A stretch of 64,000 bases of DNA from assembly GCF_000264455.2 (NCBI RefSeq), contig NC_017956.1, positions 2,958,001 to 3,022,000 of the forward strand, given 5' to 3'. Origin of the DNA: Tistrella mobilis KA081020-065. GTDB taxonomy: Bacteria; Pseudomonadota; Alphaproteobacteria; Tistrellales; Tistrellaceae. Positions 7,709 through 25,064 of the stretch are shown here, piece after piece (within the stretch, counting starts at the first letter, position 1; every line of letters begins with the position of its first letter). Made by a program: the position numbers and the translations under genes. The notes under the pieces were generated by a model. The model did no database searches and had not been told where the DNA came from. It worked only from the letters and a program-made list of their open reading frames with translations.

Positions 7709-8607
7709 GCTGCGGCTTCTCCGCTGCTGATCGCCGCCCGGGATGCCGCCGGTTCGGCGGCCGCAGACGGCTTCTGAAGGGCAAACCCGGCCGGCCCGGC
7801 AGACAGGGGGGCCATGGCAGACGGGGCAGGCATGGCCAGCGCGCGGCCGATCGGGTCCAACGGCCGCAGCCGGTGCTGCAGCCAGGCGACCCCGGCCAGA
7901 TCCACGATGCCCTGCAGGGCGCGGGTCAGGGTGCGGTATTTGGACCGCCCGCCCCGGCGGCGGCGATCCGTCACCTCTACCGACACGACCCGGCCGCCGG
8001 CGGCGGTCACCAGGCTCGGCATGAAACGATGGGCATGGTCGAACAGCGGCAGCGACAGCAGGTCGTCGCGCGCAATCACCCGCAGCCCGCAGCCGCTGTC
8101 GGGGGTGCCGTCCTGCAGCACCCGGCTGCGGATGCCGTTGGCGACCCGCGACACCAGCTTGCGCCAGGCGCCATCCGCCCGGCCCTTGCGGTGGCCGGCC
8201 ACCATCACCCCGCGCGCGGGCCCGCCCGCCTCGATCATCCAGCGCCGGATCAGCCGGGCAAGATCGGCCGGGTCGTTCTGGCCGTCGGCATCCAGCGTGG
8301 CGATCACCCGCCCGCGCGCCGCACGAAACCCGGTGGTCATGGCCGCACTCTGGCCGCGGCCGCGATCATGGGCGATCGCGACCAGCCGCGGATCGGCCGA
8401 GGCCGCAGCGGCCAGCAGACGGTCGGACCCGTCGCTGCTGCCATCGTCGACGGCGATGATCTCGTAGCCGCCGGCCAGGATGTCCGGCGTCGCGAAGGCC
8501 CGGTGAATCTCGGCGATCAGGGGCAGGATGGCGGCCGCCTCGTCGCGGACCGGCAGCACCAGGCTGATCAGCGGAGCGGCGGAAACCGGATTACGGCTGG
8601 GGAGCAT
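7705..8607 (-). CDS. Family 2 glycosyltransferase (polyprenyl-phosphate sugar transferase)
   Basis: This 300-aa cytoplasmic GT-A enzyme probably loads a sugar onto undecaprenyl phosphate for the downstream GT39. It has the GT2 start LISLVLPVRDEAAAILPLIAEI, the nucleotide-binding IIAVDDGSSDGSD, and the metal-binding DADGQNDPADLARLI, where dolichyl-phosphate mannosyltransferases usually have DADLQDPP. The ATG at 8607 has GAGG eight bases upstream and is preferred over an in-frame GTG at 8649. It is the first gene of the operon with the LAB_N and GT39 genes. Confidence 0.88.
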   Translation of the reverse strand: MLPSRNPVSAAPLISLVLPVRDEAAAILPLIAEIHRAFATPDILAGGYEIIAVDDGSSDGSDRLLAAAASADPRLVAIAHDRGRGQSAAMTTGFRAARGRVIATLDADGQNDPADLARLIRRWMIEAGGPARGVMVAGHRKGRADGAWRKLVSRVANGIRSRVLQDGTPDSGCGLRVIARDDLLSLPLFDHAHRFMPSLVTAAGGRVVSVEVTDRRRRGGRSKYRTLTRALQGIVDLAGVAWLQHRLRPLDPIGRALAMPAPSAMAPLSAGPAGFALQKPSAAAEPAASRAAISSGEAAA

Positions 8608-8687
8608 GGCTGGGCCTCGCTCGCTATGGGTTCGGATCGATGCCGGCACGGCATCCTGGTCCGCATGACCCTAGGCTTGTGCCCTTA

Positions 8688-8757
8688 CCCTGTGCTTACA
8701 CCACCCTGTGCTTACACCACCCCTCCTTGTCTTGCGCCCCCCTCCTTGTCTTGCGCC
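8688..8757. repeat. Two adjacent tandem duplications in a short intergenic region
   Basis: A 16-bp unit ccctgtgcttacacca occurs twice head to tail (8688-8703, 8704-8719). Directly after it, ctccttgtcttgcgcc occurs twice with a 19-bp period (8723-8738, 8742-8757). The block fills the gap between the histidine kinase stop (8765) and the GT2 start, so it lies in the promoter/leader region of the glycosylation operon. Confidence 0.85.
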
Positions 8758-8764
8758 GCCCGAC

Positions 8765-10219
8765 TCATCCCCGGCCGGGTGGCGGGAAGCGCAGGCGGAA
8801 CCGCGCCCCGCCTTCGGGTGCATCCTCGACGGTGATCCCGGCGCCATGGGCATCGGCGATGCGCTGCACGATCGCAAGCCCCAGCCCGGCGCCGTCGCCG
8901 CGCCGCCGGTCGGCCCGCCAGAAACGTTCGAAGATCCGGGCCCGGCGATCGGGCGGAATGCCGGGGCCGTTGTCGTCCACCAGCAGCTCCGGCCCTTCGG
9001 CATCGCCGGTCGGCGCCGGCACCAGTCGGACGGTGACGGTGCCGTCTTCGGGGATACAGGCCAGCGCGTTTTCCACCAGATTGCGCAGCAGCCGGGCCAG
9101 CGGTTCGGCCCTGCCCTGCACCGGCACCGGCCGCTCGGCACCATCCAGCGCCAGGCTGCGGCCACGCTGCACGGCCAGCGGCGCCAGTTCGGCCAGCACG
9201 TCCCGCGCCACCGCGGCAAGATCGGCCCGATCCCCCGGCGCCACCGCCAGCGTGTCGACCTCGGCCAGCCGCAGCAGCTGATCGGCCAGCCGCGACAGCC
9301 GGTCGAAATCGGGGGTGATCCGCGCCGCCTGATCGCGGGGCAGGGTCGCCTCGATCCGCGCCCTCAAGGCCGCGATCGGCGTGCGCAGCTCATGCGCCGC
9401 ATCGGCCACGAACACCCGCTGGGTTTCCAGCGCCCCATCCAGCCGGTCCAGCGCGCCATCGATCGCGGCGACCAACGGTGCCACCTCCCGCGGCAGGTCG
9501 CCACCCTCCGCGCCCCCGCCCAGGCGAACCCCGCTGGTCGCGGGTCCGATCCTGGCCGCACTGGCGGACAGCCGTCTCAGCGGCGCCAGTGCCGATCGGA
9601 TCGTCCAGAGCGTCACCCCGATCAGCACGGCAAACGACCCGATCACCCACCAGGCGGCGTTTTCCAGAAACTCTTCGATCAGGCTGTCGGCCAGCACGTC
9701 CGGATGGTCGTTGCCCTGGCCCACCTGCAGGATCAGCGGCCGGCCGTCGACCTGCACCCGGAAACCGGTGCCGGTGACCGGGCGCCCGGCGGCCTCGCCG
9801 CGGAAGGGCCGCCCCAGATCGCCCAGCCCGTGCGGATCGGCATCGGCGGAGGTGCGGCTGTCTTCGGCCGGCAGCAGCTCGCTCAGCGGCGCCCGAACCC
9901 CGGCCGAGCCCAGCAGAAAGGTGCCGGCCTCGTCGAGCAACGCAAAGGCCTCGTTGCCCGCCGGATCGGCATAAAGTGCTGCGATCGCGGCCGGCGGATC
10001 GAAAACCGGATCGCCCCCGGCCCCGATGGTCATGTACCGCAGCACCTGGCGGGCCTGGGTCTGCAGCGACTGGTCGTCCAGATCGCCGCGAACATCCTCC
10101 AGTTCCAGCACCAGCGCCGCCAGCATGGCCGCCAGCACCACCAGCGCCGCCAGTGCCGCGCGGACCGCGACCCTCCGGCTCAGCGACCAGCCGCGATCAT
10201 ACGCTTCAGGCCCCGCCAT
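8765..10219 (-). CDS. Membrane sensor histidine kinase (OmpR-class partner)
   Basis: This 484-aa kinase autophosphorylates and passes phosphate to the regulator encoded just upstream. In order: a first membrane helix near residues 15-40 (AVRAALAALVVLAAMLAALVLELE), a periplasmic sensor of about 120 residues, a second helix (AAWWVIGSFAVLIGVTLWTIRS), HAMP, and the H-box DAAHELRTPIAALRAR. The N-box region LARLLRNLVENALACI, G1 VDDNGPGIPP and G2 GDGAGLGLAIVQRI follow. The start at 10219 overlaps the regulator's 3' end by 14 nt; a longer in-frame extension upstream would cover the regulator gene and looks non-coding. The architecture resembles QseC/TctE-type kinases; the signal is unknown. Confidence 0.9.
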   Translation of the reverse strand: MAGPEAYDRGWSLSRRVAVRAALAALVVLAAMLAALVLELEDVRGDLDDQSLQTQARQVLRYMTIGAGGDPVFDPPAAIAALYADPAGNEAFALLDEAGTFLLGSAGVRAPLSELLPAEDSRTSADADPHGLGDLGRPFRGEAAGRPVTGTGFRVQVDGRPLILQVGQGNDHPDVLADSLIEEFLENAAWWVIGSFAVLIGVTLWTIRSALAPLRRLSASAARIGPATSGVRLGGGAEGGDLPREVAPLVAAIDGALDRLDGALETQRVFVADAAHELRTPIAALRARIEATLPRDQAARITPDFDRLSRLADQLLRLAEVDTLAVAPGDRADLAAVARDVLAELAPLAVQRGRSLALDGAERPVPVQGRAEPLARLLRNLVENALACIPEDGTVTVRLVPAPTGDAEGPELLVDDNGPGIPPDRRARIFERFWRADRRRGDGAGLGLAIVQRIADAHGAGITVEDAPEGGARFRLRFPPPGRG

Positions 10220-22026: not shown

Positions 22027-23781
22027 TCAGGTAGTGCCCGCTGGATAGGCGGCAATCCGGTTCGTGCCCACCATGCTGGTCGTCGGCGACGGCAGGTCGA
22101 GCCCCGGGGCCCCTTCATAGCCATCAATGAGATTGCCATCGATCAGACAGCCGGTGCCTGTCACCCGGATACCGGGGAAGGGAGCCGCAGCAGTTCCCGA
22201 ACGCCGCACGACATTGCCAGTCACCTGGCAGTCGTCCGCCCGGACATAAAGCCCATGCTCCACAGAGTTGGCGATGAGGTTGTTCGAGACCTGGACGCCC
22301 GAACCATGGATCAGAATGGTGGGACCATGCCGATAGGTGGTCGGGCTGGCCAGATCACAGGTCCACTGGCAGTTGGTGATCGCACCATTGATCGCCTTGC
22401 TCGCCGTGGGTGTACCTTCGGGCACCGTTTCGACCAGCGTTTCATAGCCCCGATAACCTGTCACGCCGGTGATCCGCATATCGCCCATCGGGCCGTGATA
22501 GAAACGGCGGCAATCATCAGCATAGCAGTCGGCGATCAGCCCGCCCTTCAGGGCATCGGAAAGCCCCGCGACCATGATGCAGGTGGACGAGCGGTCAAAG
22601 AGCCCGCCACCATTTACCTTTTGAATGGTCTGAGCGGTGGCGCCCCAGGCTTCGGGGGTAATGACTTGCGGATCAATCGGCGGTGGTGTTTCGTCGGTCT
22701 CGCTCTCTTCCTCGCTCGCGTCTTGTATGATGTACATGTCCGGTGCCGCACGGTCATAAAGAACACCATCAGCCCCGACGACATAAAGCATGTTGTCCTC
22801 AAGACCGGTGGGGGCGGTTCCTGCCCGATAGACCACGATGTCACCGACCTCGAACGCGTCGAGCCCCGTGGTCTGGGTGGTCACGGAGGACGTCAGTACC
22901 ACGTCGACCTGCTGCCGGGGGCCACCACAACCATGGAAGCGGTTGGCGATGAAATTGAACCCGCGGATCGTGACGTCATTGGTCGTGGACTTCGCCGCCG
23001 GATGGATCACGATCCCATAGCGGCACGAGCTGAAATGGGTCCGGGTCACGAGGAAGTTGCGGCCGAAGCCGACAATTCCCATGCGCATATTGTAGAAGCG
23101 ACAGAAGGCGAACTCACTGTCCAGGTCGGCCCGGCCTGTGGTGTTACAGAGCACGAAGCCGATGGTCCGCGCCCCATACCCGTTGACCGATGTCGAGATG
23201 CCGTCGGGCAGGGGCGCACTGCCGTCGATCCAGCCTTCGAAACTGATGCCCGTGACCCAGATGCGCGTGGATGACGCGCGGGTGAACATGACCTTGAGAT
23301 TCTCCCCCGCCTTGATCACCGGCCGGTCCCAGCCCTCGCCTTCCCCCTTCAGCTGCGTGGTTGTCGGGATGTGGACGGTACGGTCCAGCGTGATGGTACC
23401 GCTGAAGACGACGACACCACCGAATCCCGCGGCATTGATCGCCCGCTCGATCTGCGCCGCCGCGTGGGGGATCGTTACCGTCGTGGCGCCATTCGCCCTG
23501 ACATTGCCGATACCGTACCAGGCCGTCCGCACCGGCCCCTGATCGATCCGGCGCCAGACCCCGATCCGGGTATCGGTGTCGGAGTTGACGCAGTCGAAGA
23601 CCATGCCCTCGTCGATCCTGTCGGCATACGGGCCGGTCGGGACTTCAAGACGAAAGGTGCCGCCGCCATCATCGTCGTAGACGTGATATCCGGCGACGAT
23701 CGCCACGTCGCCCGGGCTCGGCAGGGCCCCCACAGGCGGCTGCTGCATCGCGGCGACGGTCTGATAGGTGAAAGTGGCCAT
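22027..23781 (-). CDS. Right-handed beta-helix (pectate-lyase-like / tailspike-like) protein
   Basis: This 584-aa protein starts MATFTYQTVAAMQQPPVGALPSPGDVAIVAGYHVYDDDGGGTF, a capping module seen before beta-helix repeats in phage tailspikes and surface proteins. It continues with many short beta-strand turns (ISFEGWIDGS, VTIRGFNFIANRF, ITNCQWTC, VSNNLIANSVEHGLYVRADDCQVTGNVVRRSG, IRVTGTGCLIDGNLIDGYEG) typical of parallel beta-helix proteins. No signal peptide is visible. AGGAGG precedes the ATG. Base composition and codon use are clearly less GC-rich than in neighbouring genes, indicating transfer. Whether it degrades a polysaccharide or is a phage remnant is open. Confidence 0.7.
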   Translation of the reverse strand: MATFTYQTVAAMQQPPVGALPSPGDVAIVAGYHVYDDDGGGTFRLEVPTGPYADRIDEGMVFDCVNSDTDTRIGVWRRIDQGPVRTAWYGIGNVRANGATTVTIPHAAAQIERAINAAGFGGVVVFSGTITLDRTVHIPTTTQLKGEGEGWDRPVIKAGENLKVMFTRASSTRIWVTGISFEGWIDGSAPLPDGISTSVNGYGARTIGFVLCNTTGRADLDSEFAFCRFYNMRMGIVGFGRNFLVTRTHFSSCRYGIVIHPAAKSTTNDVTIRGFNFIANRFHGCGGPRQQVDVVLTSSVTTQTTGLDAFEVGDIVVYRAGTAPTGLEDNMLYVVGADGVLYDRAAPDMYIIQDASEEESETDETPPPIDPQVITPEAWGATAQTIQKVNGGGLFDRSSTCIMVAGLSDALKGGLIADCYADDCRRFYHGPMGDMRITGVTGYRGYETLVETVPEGTPTASKAINGAITNCQWTCDLASPTTYRHGPTILIHGSGVQVSNNLIANSVEHGLYVRADDCQVTGNVVRRSGTAAAPFPGIRVTGTGCLIDGNLIDGYEGAPGLDLPSPTTSMVGTNRIAAYPAGTT

Positions 23782-23871
23782 TGGCCTCCTGCTCCTGGGA
23801 TGGAAGGCGCCCCGTCGGCACCTTCGGCATCGCCCAGCATGGCAAGCGGCGTCCGTCTTCCCGATTCGTCT

Positions 23872-23895
23872 TCTGTTGCAACATGTTGCAACAGA
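23872..23895. promoter_or_regulatory. 24-bp perfect palindrome between rmuC and the beta-helix gene
   Basis: The half-site TCTGTTGCAACA (23872-23883) is followed by its exact reverse complement, with no spacer. It lies 91 bp upstream of the beta-helix start and 11 bp beyond the rmuC stop. Both flanking genes are read on the minus strand and no U-run follows, so an operator or partition-like binding site is more likely than a terminator. Confidence 0.75.
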
Positions 23896-23906
23896 CCGGC
23901 GCACCC

Positions 23907-25064
23907 TCAGCCGGCCTCGTCCTCCGTGCCCCGGTCGCCCAGCTGCAGGGCGTCGATGCGCTCCGCCCGGCGGGCGGCCCGGTCGGCCGACAGGCGGACG
24001 CCGCGCAGATCTTCTGCCGCCTGTTCGAAATGGCGGACCAGCTTGGCCGCCCGGTCGTCGAGCCGGGCCAGATCGTCGAGCAGGGCGGTGACCTGGGCCC
24101 GGATCTCGGCCGCCTGCTCGCGCACCCGCACATCCTTGAGTATCGCCCGGATGGTGGTGAGCGTCGCCATCAGCGTGGTGGGAGAAACGATCCAGACCCG
24201 GGCGCGGAAGGCCTTTTCCACCACGTCCTGAAAATTGCCGTGCAGTTCGGCATAGACGGCTTCCGAGGGCAGGAACATCACCGCGCCGTCCGCCGTTTCG
24301 CCGGGGATCAGATAGCGTTCGGAAATCGCCTTCACATGGGCCATGACCGCCGTGCGGAAGGCGCGCGCCGCCTCGGTCCGCCGGGCGTCGCTGTCGGCCT
24401 GGCGGAGCAGATGGAAGCTTTCCAGCGGAAATTTGGCGTCGACGACGATCGGCCCCGGCGGATGCGGCAGATGGATCAGGCAGTCGGCGCGGCGGCCGTT
24501 TGACAGTGTCGCCTGCATCGCATAGGCGCCGGGCGGCAGCATCTGGCCGACCAGATCGGCAAGCTGGACCTCGCCGAAGGCGCCGCGGGCCTGTTTGTTG
24601 GCCAGGATGTCCTGCAGCCCGACCACCTTCTGTCCCAGATCGGCGATGTTGCGCTGAGCCTGATCGATCACCGCCAGCCGGGCGCGCAGATCCGCCGTCG
24701 CCTGGGCGGCACGGGTGCCTTCCAGATCGAAGCGATGCTCCAGCCGGGCCGACAGCGTGGTCAGGCGGGCATCCACCGTCTCGGCGATCATCCGCTCCTG
24801 GGTCTGAAGCCGGGCATCCACCTGCGCCTGCTGGGCGGCAAGGGCCGCCACCACCTGCTCCATCCGCCCCGCCTGCTGGGCCTGGGCGCGGGCCAGATCC
24901 CCCGCCAGCCGTTCCAGGATCTCCGCCTGGTCGAGGGCGGCATCCTCGGCCGCACGGGCCCGGCGGGCGGCCGCCGCCGCAACCCAGCCGCCGGCGACCA
25001 GCACCACCAGCAACAGGGCTGCGATGGCGAGCGGAACGGGGTCGAGGGTGGCGAAATCAGGCAT
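23907..25064 (-). CDS. rmuC: DNA recombination protein RmuC
   Basis: RmuC limits DNA inversions and has a PD-(D/E)XK-like nuclease fold. The 385-aa protein has an N-terminal membrane anchor (PLAIAALLLVVLVAGGWVAAAAA), a long coiled coil (about 35-160), then the RmuC domain with GAFGEVQLADLVGQMLPPGAYAMQ, IVVDAKFPLESFHLL, ERYLIPGETADGAVMFLPSEAVYAELH and ARVWIVSPTTLMATLTTIRAI. The length is typical. It is transcribed away from def. Confidence 0.93.
   Translation of the reverse strand: MPDFATLDPVPLAIAALLLVVLVAGGWVAAAAARRARAAEDAALDQAEILERLAGDLARAQAQQAGRMEQVVAALAAQQAQVDARLQTQERMIAETVDARLTTLSARLEHRFDLEGTRAAQATADLRARLAVIDQAQRNIADLGQKVVGLQDILANKQARGAFGEVQLADLVGQMLPPGAYAMQATLSNGRRADCLIHLPHPPGPIVVDAKFPLESFHLLRQADSDARRTEAARAFRTAVMAHVKAISERYLIPGETADGAVMFLPSEAVYAELHGNFQDVVEKAFRARVWIVSPTTLMATLTTIRAILKDVRVREQAAEIRAQVTALLDDLARLDDRAAKLVRHFEQAAEDLRGVRLSADRAARRAERIDALQLGDRGTEDEAG

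Follow-up and report, generated by a model that had tools for sequence, protein, structure and literature searches.

Operators of dimeric helix-turn-helix repressors and activators are two-fold or tandem sites of about 20 bp at promoter distance. The palindromic element described here resembles them in its size of about 20 bp, in its promoter distance and in its recurrence before related genes, and is set apart by the set of genes that it accompanies, namely dispersed tail-spike-like genes and a RiPP precursor. A second parallel is offered by the head-spike genes of gene-transfer agents, which are unlinked accessory particle genes situated away from the particle cluster. The likeness lies in the scattered spike-like genes, which possibly share a regulator; the difference is that Phage_portal (PF04860) has no match either in the genome that holds the locus (G000; 6.5 Mb in 5 contigs) or in a congener (G001), so that there is no sign of a gene-transfer agent of this type. 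With respect to response regulators, a passage of PMC3960148 has members of the OmpR/PhoB family binding direct repeats; the boxes of that passage are like the present element in having two units one helical turn apart, whereas inverted symmetry fits the element at least as well and its orientation with the gene is not significant. Furthermore, TTGCAACA co-occurs with the words palindromic, operator and regulon in PMC1995591. Literature searches gave no match for the 16-mer or the 20-mer of the element, and no co-mention of Tistrella and tail spike.

We propose that the palindrome acts in cis, as the operator of a DNA-binding regulator that the genus encodes and that works in trans, and that it travels with beta-helix gene modules, a reading to which we assign a probability of roughly 0.7. 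A switch shared by several genes is its most likely role, ahead of a terminator or of a palindrome that arose by chance. The putative operator would consist of two 10-bp units, each approximately TGYTGCNRCA, within the overall pattern TGNNGC-N8-GCNNCA, a size that would suit a protein dimer gripping two successive helix turns. Given that the element lies 78-141 bp before the called start codon, it probably overlaps the promoter of each single-gene beta-helix module or lies immediately upstream of that promoter; the regulator would then set the timing of production of the tail-spike-like protein, and the element would come and go together with the module. Protein binding, control of transcription and the dimer model are what we infer; an operator is the simplest account because a two-unit site at promoter distance stands before unlinked, similar genes and a peptide precursor, is kept despite drift and is absent where the gene is absent. 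No regulator gene with a site of its own was found.

The features of the locus, in the coordinates of the window (the whole stretch of DNA that was analysed, 64 kb), are the following.

22027-23781, minus strand: gene for a beta-helix protein with a tail-spike-like N-terminal domain (Pfam Beta_helix match above its cut-off; N-terminal profile A2)
23782-23871, minus strand: leader between the element and the start codon (identity comparison with G001)
23803-23825, minus strand: leader inverted repeat GAAGGTGCC/GGCGCCTTC, a possible 5′-UTR hairpin (fold)
23872-23895, no strand: 24-bp perfect palindrome, operator-like element before the beta-helix gene of the window (sequence, longest in the window, recurrence)
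23874-23883, no strand: 10-bp unit TGTTGCAACA on the side of the beta-helix gene (sequence)
23884-23893, no strand: 10-bp unit TGTTGCAACA on the side of rmuC; both units make up the 20-bp core TGTTGC-N8-GCAACA
23907-25064, minus strand: rmuC, next gene upstream, oriented alike (match to NCBIfam RmuC that stays below the cut-off)

As an earlier, sequence-only reading had described it, TCTGTTGCAACATGTTGCAACAGA is a spacer-less, perfect 24-bp palindrome that is richer in A+T than its surroundings (42% G+C vs 69% for the window). It is the longest perfect palindrome in the window, the runner-up having 9-bp arms, and it lies between two genes of the minus strand, 11 bp behind the stop codon of rmuC (which ends at 23907) and 90 bp from the start codon of the beta-helix gene (23781); the earlier reading gave 91 bp. 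Its 20-bp core is composed of two head-to-tail copies of the 10-mer TGTTGCAACA, which is palindromic by itself. The lack of a U-run noted by the same reading was borne out: a search of 23700-24000 for an intrinsic terminator, i.e., a stem followed by a T-run, gave no terminator-like match. The same interval holds no match to a sigma-70-type promoter, and no common -10 motif is visible in the base composition behind the sites.

The statement of that reading that such a palindrome is very unlikely by chance goes too far for a single window; what chance leaves unexplained is the recurrence of the core before the same kind of gene. Arms of at least 12 bp occurred in 8 of 200 windows simulated with a first-order Markov model, and the expectation with independent bases is 0.02 per 64 kb, or about 2 per genome; since 8 of the 200 Markov windows contain a palindrome this long or longer, a lone palindrome is modest evidence. 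Genome-wide, the 20-bp core with at most two mismatches has two sites in G000, in the window and on contig C4, vs none for the reversed control, and the 16-bp core with at most three mismatches has 8 sites in G000 and 7 in G001, the reversed control having one in each. The sites of G000 comprise three before beta-helix genes, one before an NHLP gene and four inside reading frames; those of G001 comprise three before beta-helix genes, one before a gene for a methyl-accepting chemotaxis protein (MCP) and three inside reading frames. Thus, the genome-wide search for similar sites that had been suggested shows them recurring in G000 before beta-helix genes and one NHLP gene.

The three beta-helix genes of G000 that have such a site, in the window, on C4 and at the C1b locus behind a SulP-type transporter gene, are divergent. 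Between the C4 site and the start codon of a second beta-helix gene there are 88 bp; the product of this gene resembles the window protein mainly in the N-terminal domain, with 22-34% identity to it among aligned N-termini. That the palindrome and its counterparts arose by chance, or that they are a structure associated with rmuC, we consider very improbable: palindromes of such length are found in 4% of random windows, but the element recurs at unlinked loci before the same kind of gene, which contradicts this explanation, and the 20-mer with at most two mismatches is absent from all 29 other class-level genomes, which lie outside the genus. As counterevidence, the sequence-only reading had named a palindrome that forms the 3′ end of rmuC where the beta-helix gene is missing; none was seen among these 29 genomes in the search for the 20-mer with at most two mismatches, a comparison that is indirect, all three genomes of the genus having the gene at rmuC.

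The promoter-placed sites of G000 are distributed over three replicons, each before an individual beta-helix or RiPP-precursor gene. A partition site, one of the functions considered earlier, is unsupported because the sites are tied singly to individual genes, beta-helix or NHLP, on three replicons. With TIGR03793, whose cut-off is 50.9, the NHLP gene that follows the G000 site scores 50.8 and a neighbouring NHLP gene 73.8; G001 has a relative of the former, preceded by a related site (L149). The region concerned (L029:6366-7920 on contig C3 of G000) is a cluster of NHLP-leader RiPP precursors near an ABC-transporter-like gene, and the palindrome lies about 125 bp before the farthest-upstream NHLP gene, as it does in the relative in G001. 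The site-like sequence of G001 before the MCP gene (L040:7967-7988, contig C4) scores 21.3 and lies about 30 bp before that gene; it has no counterpart in G000 and may be due to chance.

Profile A2, which describes the common N-terminal domain, matches 10 of 385 class-level genomes, three from the genus (G000, G001 and G034) and seven others; given that G034 is labelled as the same species as G000, the genus genomes do not represent three independent species. Across these three, a TGNNGC-N8-GCNNCA-like element is present 78-141 bp before the called start of 16 of 23 beta-helix genes, at 8 of 13 loci, and related NHLP genes carry it in two genomes. The genes counted are those matching profile A2 or Pfam PF12708, plus two G034 genes included by position (alr and tig loci); the G034 list was drawn up by A2 and position, without PF12708, and may be short. 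Left out were two weak matches (C2:592987 in G000, E 0.247; C4:4049738 in G001, E 0.293) and, at the tig locus of G001, a third beta-helix-like gene that has no profile match (L111, about 8454-9278). A clear copy, defined as a matrix score of at least 16, is found before 3 of 5 beta-helix genes in G000, 7 of 9 in G001 and 6 of 9 in G034. With a symmetric matrix applied to all counted genes, the 16 score at least 16.5 and the remaining seven at most 15.3. These seven genes without a clear copy, at five of the 13 loci, are a prophage gene and those of L114/L167, L168 and two tig-locus loci; among those counted as misses, the tig genes of G000 and G034 show a similar palindrome whose spacing is 6 bp, and L167 has a match of 15.3 at the start codon. 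The tig locus (L111, L116, L177) is variable: G001 has three beta-helix-like genes there, and G000 and G034 have one each.

The count of 16 of 23 is partly circular because most of the matrix sites are the training set, and held-out scores are the fairer test. When one locus at a time was left out, the held-out loci scored 20-34, with tig as the outlier (its tig-a site scores 21.1 in the training set and 11.2 held out); the alr site, which is outside the training set, scores 16.5. Of the seven upstream regions of modules in G034, five reach a score of 16.0 or more with the first site matrix (the window locus, ubiX, C4, C1b and L169, the first three being identical in sequence to training members), and the other two score 9.3 and 13.1. 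The 20-mer lies 92 bp (window locus), 87-88 bp (C4), 123-134 bp (C1b), 116 bp (ubiX), 99 bp (alr), about 97 bp (tRNA locus), 78 bp (L169) and 141 bp (tig-a, start uncertain) from the called start codon.

Beyond the genus, ten loci from the seven other class-level genomes lack the element, the best upstream score being 8.6 with the first matrix and the best score anywhere 9.6 with the symmetric one. Among 443,125 scanned bases, in loci chosen in part for their sites so that the density is biased, 12 places score above 16, ten before beta-helix genes, one before an NHLP gene and one before the MCP gene, and the best match inside a called gene scores 14.4. Scans with close patterns, which were narrower than the element and in which records very near the genome of the window may be left out, returned 34 stretches in a public genome collection and 13 in viral contigs; 44 of these 47 fall within an open reading frame according to a rough criterion, and the stretches look like chance matches. 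Thus, with no copy at the outside loci, no 20-mer with at most two mismatches in the 29 non-genus genomes and the public matches nearly all inside reading frames, the element looks genus-specific and tied to beta-helix modules. The operator that the sequence-only reading had offered as one option is accordingly the one supported, by the same element at a similar distance before several unlinked genes, kept in relatives and absent with the gene.

With respect to the symmetry of the site, 14 distinct sites that we brought into register align without gaps and have the invariant columns G3, G6, C7, C10, A11, C17, C20 and A21. Matches amount to 68.5 of 90 weighted positions when the sites are read as an inverted repeat vs 62.8 of 90 when they are read as a direct repeat, and both the inverted-repeat and the tandem 10-bp arrangements would fit. 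Covariation between the arms is weak relative to shuffles, of which 34 of 500 reach the score and 52 of 500 the percentage paired. At the C1b locus, compared over three genomes, the spacer has diverged and the arms are kept, with one T-A to C-G double change. As a tentative form of the operator, we consider a tandem direct repeat of two TTGCNRCA-like units 10 bp apart, on which an OmpR/PhoB-type response regulator would sit head-to-tail; the palindrome would then be incidental because each 10-mer of the window copy is self-palindromic. Such an arrangement is consistent with the invariance of the paired columns C7/C17, C10/C20 and A11/A21 over the 14 sites, with G6/G16 nearly so, whereas the slightly higher inverted-repeat count and the orientation relative to the gene argue against it. 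An orientation of the site with the gene, suggested by the invariant C10 and A11, failed a label-flip test: 9 of 13 sites score higher forward, and the true labelling ranks 77th of 512, which is not significant.

The joint absence of element and gene, which the sequence-only reading had proposed to check in relatives, holds at three loci, alr, ubiX and L169; the window module itself is present in all three genomes of the genus. At alr, the gene and the element are present in G001 and G034, and G000 has 7 bases instead, without the element. At ubiX, both are again present in G001 and G034, and G000 carries an unrelated insert without the element (L138:2353-3340, contig C1), a small one whose first gene weakly resembles an Xre/RES antitoxin; this locus looks like a hotspot for insertions. 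At L169, the gene and the element are present in G034, and another gene, without the element, occupies the locus in G000 and G001.

These alleles bear on a further explanation, raised earlier as an integration site, in which the palindrome is the left end or the target of recombination and the beta-helix genes are one-gene mobile cassettes, the site being used by a recombinase or transposase. We regard this as unlikely. At alr, identity with the empty allele ends at L112:8060, four bases past the upstream stop codon, and the palindromic stretch starts at 8062-8063, no more than three bases from the insertion's left edge; the right break lies about 12 bp past the beta-helix stop. This coincidence at the left edge speaks for such a role, as does the position of the element at five loci (rmuC, SulP, ubiX, alr and L169), where it follows an upstream stop codon within about 20 bp or overlaps it. 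At L114, a 2-kb beta-helix insertion absent from G000, a resemblance at the left edge was seen by eye and was unscored by the matrix. However, no element copy scored at the right ends of the three modules examined (L112, L114 and L036), and no target duplication was seen by eye, so that the element marks the left end only rather than both ends, as copies flanking a mobile cassette would. Moreover, the element stands before RiPP-precursor genes in two genomes, and its arms are kept in modules common to the three genomes while the spacers drift.

Conservation of the upstream part of the module, which is consistent with the preferred operator, is apparent from comparison with G001 and G034. The leader and element of the window are 95% identical to those of G001 and 98% to those of G034, close to the 96-98% of neighbouring genes, and the beta-helix gene is 85% and 93% identical, respectively; the upstream part is thus kept while the protein changes faster. 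The leader contains the inverted repeat at 23803-23825 directly before the ribosome-binding site. Taken together, the leaders that follow the element at seven loci show more structure than 81 upstream regions used as controls (one-sided p 0.0013), the controls having 100 bases each and the leaders other lengths; a further layer of control through the 5′-UTR may be indicated. Most of the other modules have well-folding leaders, too.

That the element itself acts as RNA, as a 5′-terminal hairpin of the beta-helix mRNA or a 3′-terminal one of the upstream mRNA, is quite improbable in our estimate. The structured leaders would be in line with such a role, as would the finding that four of six copies, namely that of the window and three from C1b, fold well, with z about -2 to -3. 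Yet the C4 and ubiX copies fold no better than shuffles (z +1.46 and -0.14), so that a stable hairpin is not a property of all homologous copies, and the upstream gene at C4 is divergent and hence provides no 3′ end there. The missing U-run and terminator match weigh against an RNA element as well, and an Rfam search of 23600-24100 at E up to 1 gave no match.

As for the proteins encoded by the modules, five of those scanned (C1b, alr, tig-a, the tRNA locus and L114) have PHROG matches to tail-spike, tail-fibre or EPS-depolymerase families; for the ubiX protein, the PHROG matches are to a tail-fibre family and to families of unknown function. The window and C4 proteins have no PHROG match; the window protein also has no phage match and the C4 module no plasmid match. 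The C1b protein matches 312 phage records, always at less than 60% identity and never over 80% of its length. Comparison of the N-terminal profile with solved structures gave seven matches, none significant, of which six, at E 0.03 to 0.1, are N-terminal parts of proteins that bear the name of tail spike, tail fibre or particle-associated glycoside hydrolase. A structure prediction for the window protein without an alignment had a mean pLDDT of 33.

It is conceivable, if speculative, that tail-spike genes of phages have been domesticated in the genus and now form movable one-gene modules with a common operator and a structured leader, so that the host could turn on a set of fast-changing spikes along with a RiPP-type peptide. 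If so, the proteins could serve in surface-glycan processing or interbacterial competition, or could arm a putative particle. Orphan beta-helix, tail-spike-like genes outside prophages are easily taken for phage debris, and a common operator kept before unlinked copies would mean that the host controls these genes as a set. If the operator is real, the 20-mer used as bait would offer a direct handle on the regulator and on the conditions under which the proteins are produced.

A tail-spike-like gene without the palindrome is present in a prophage region of G000 (L117, contig C1, 34000-53000) that is recognizable by matches to endolysin and virion-protein PHROGs. This prophage adjoins the place where G001 has a 1040-aa beta-helix gene behind tRNA-Thr (L113, L098).
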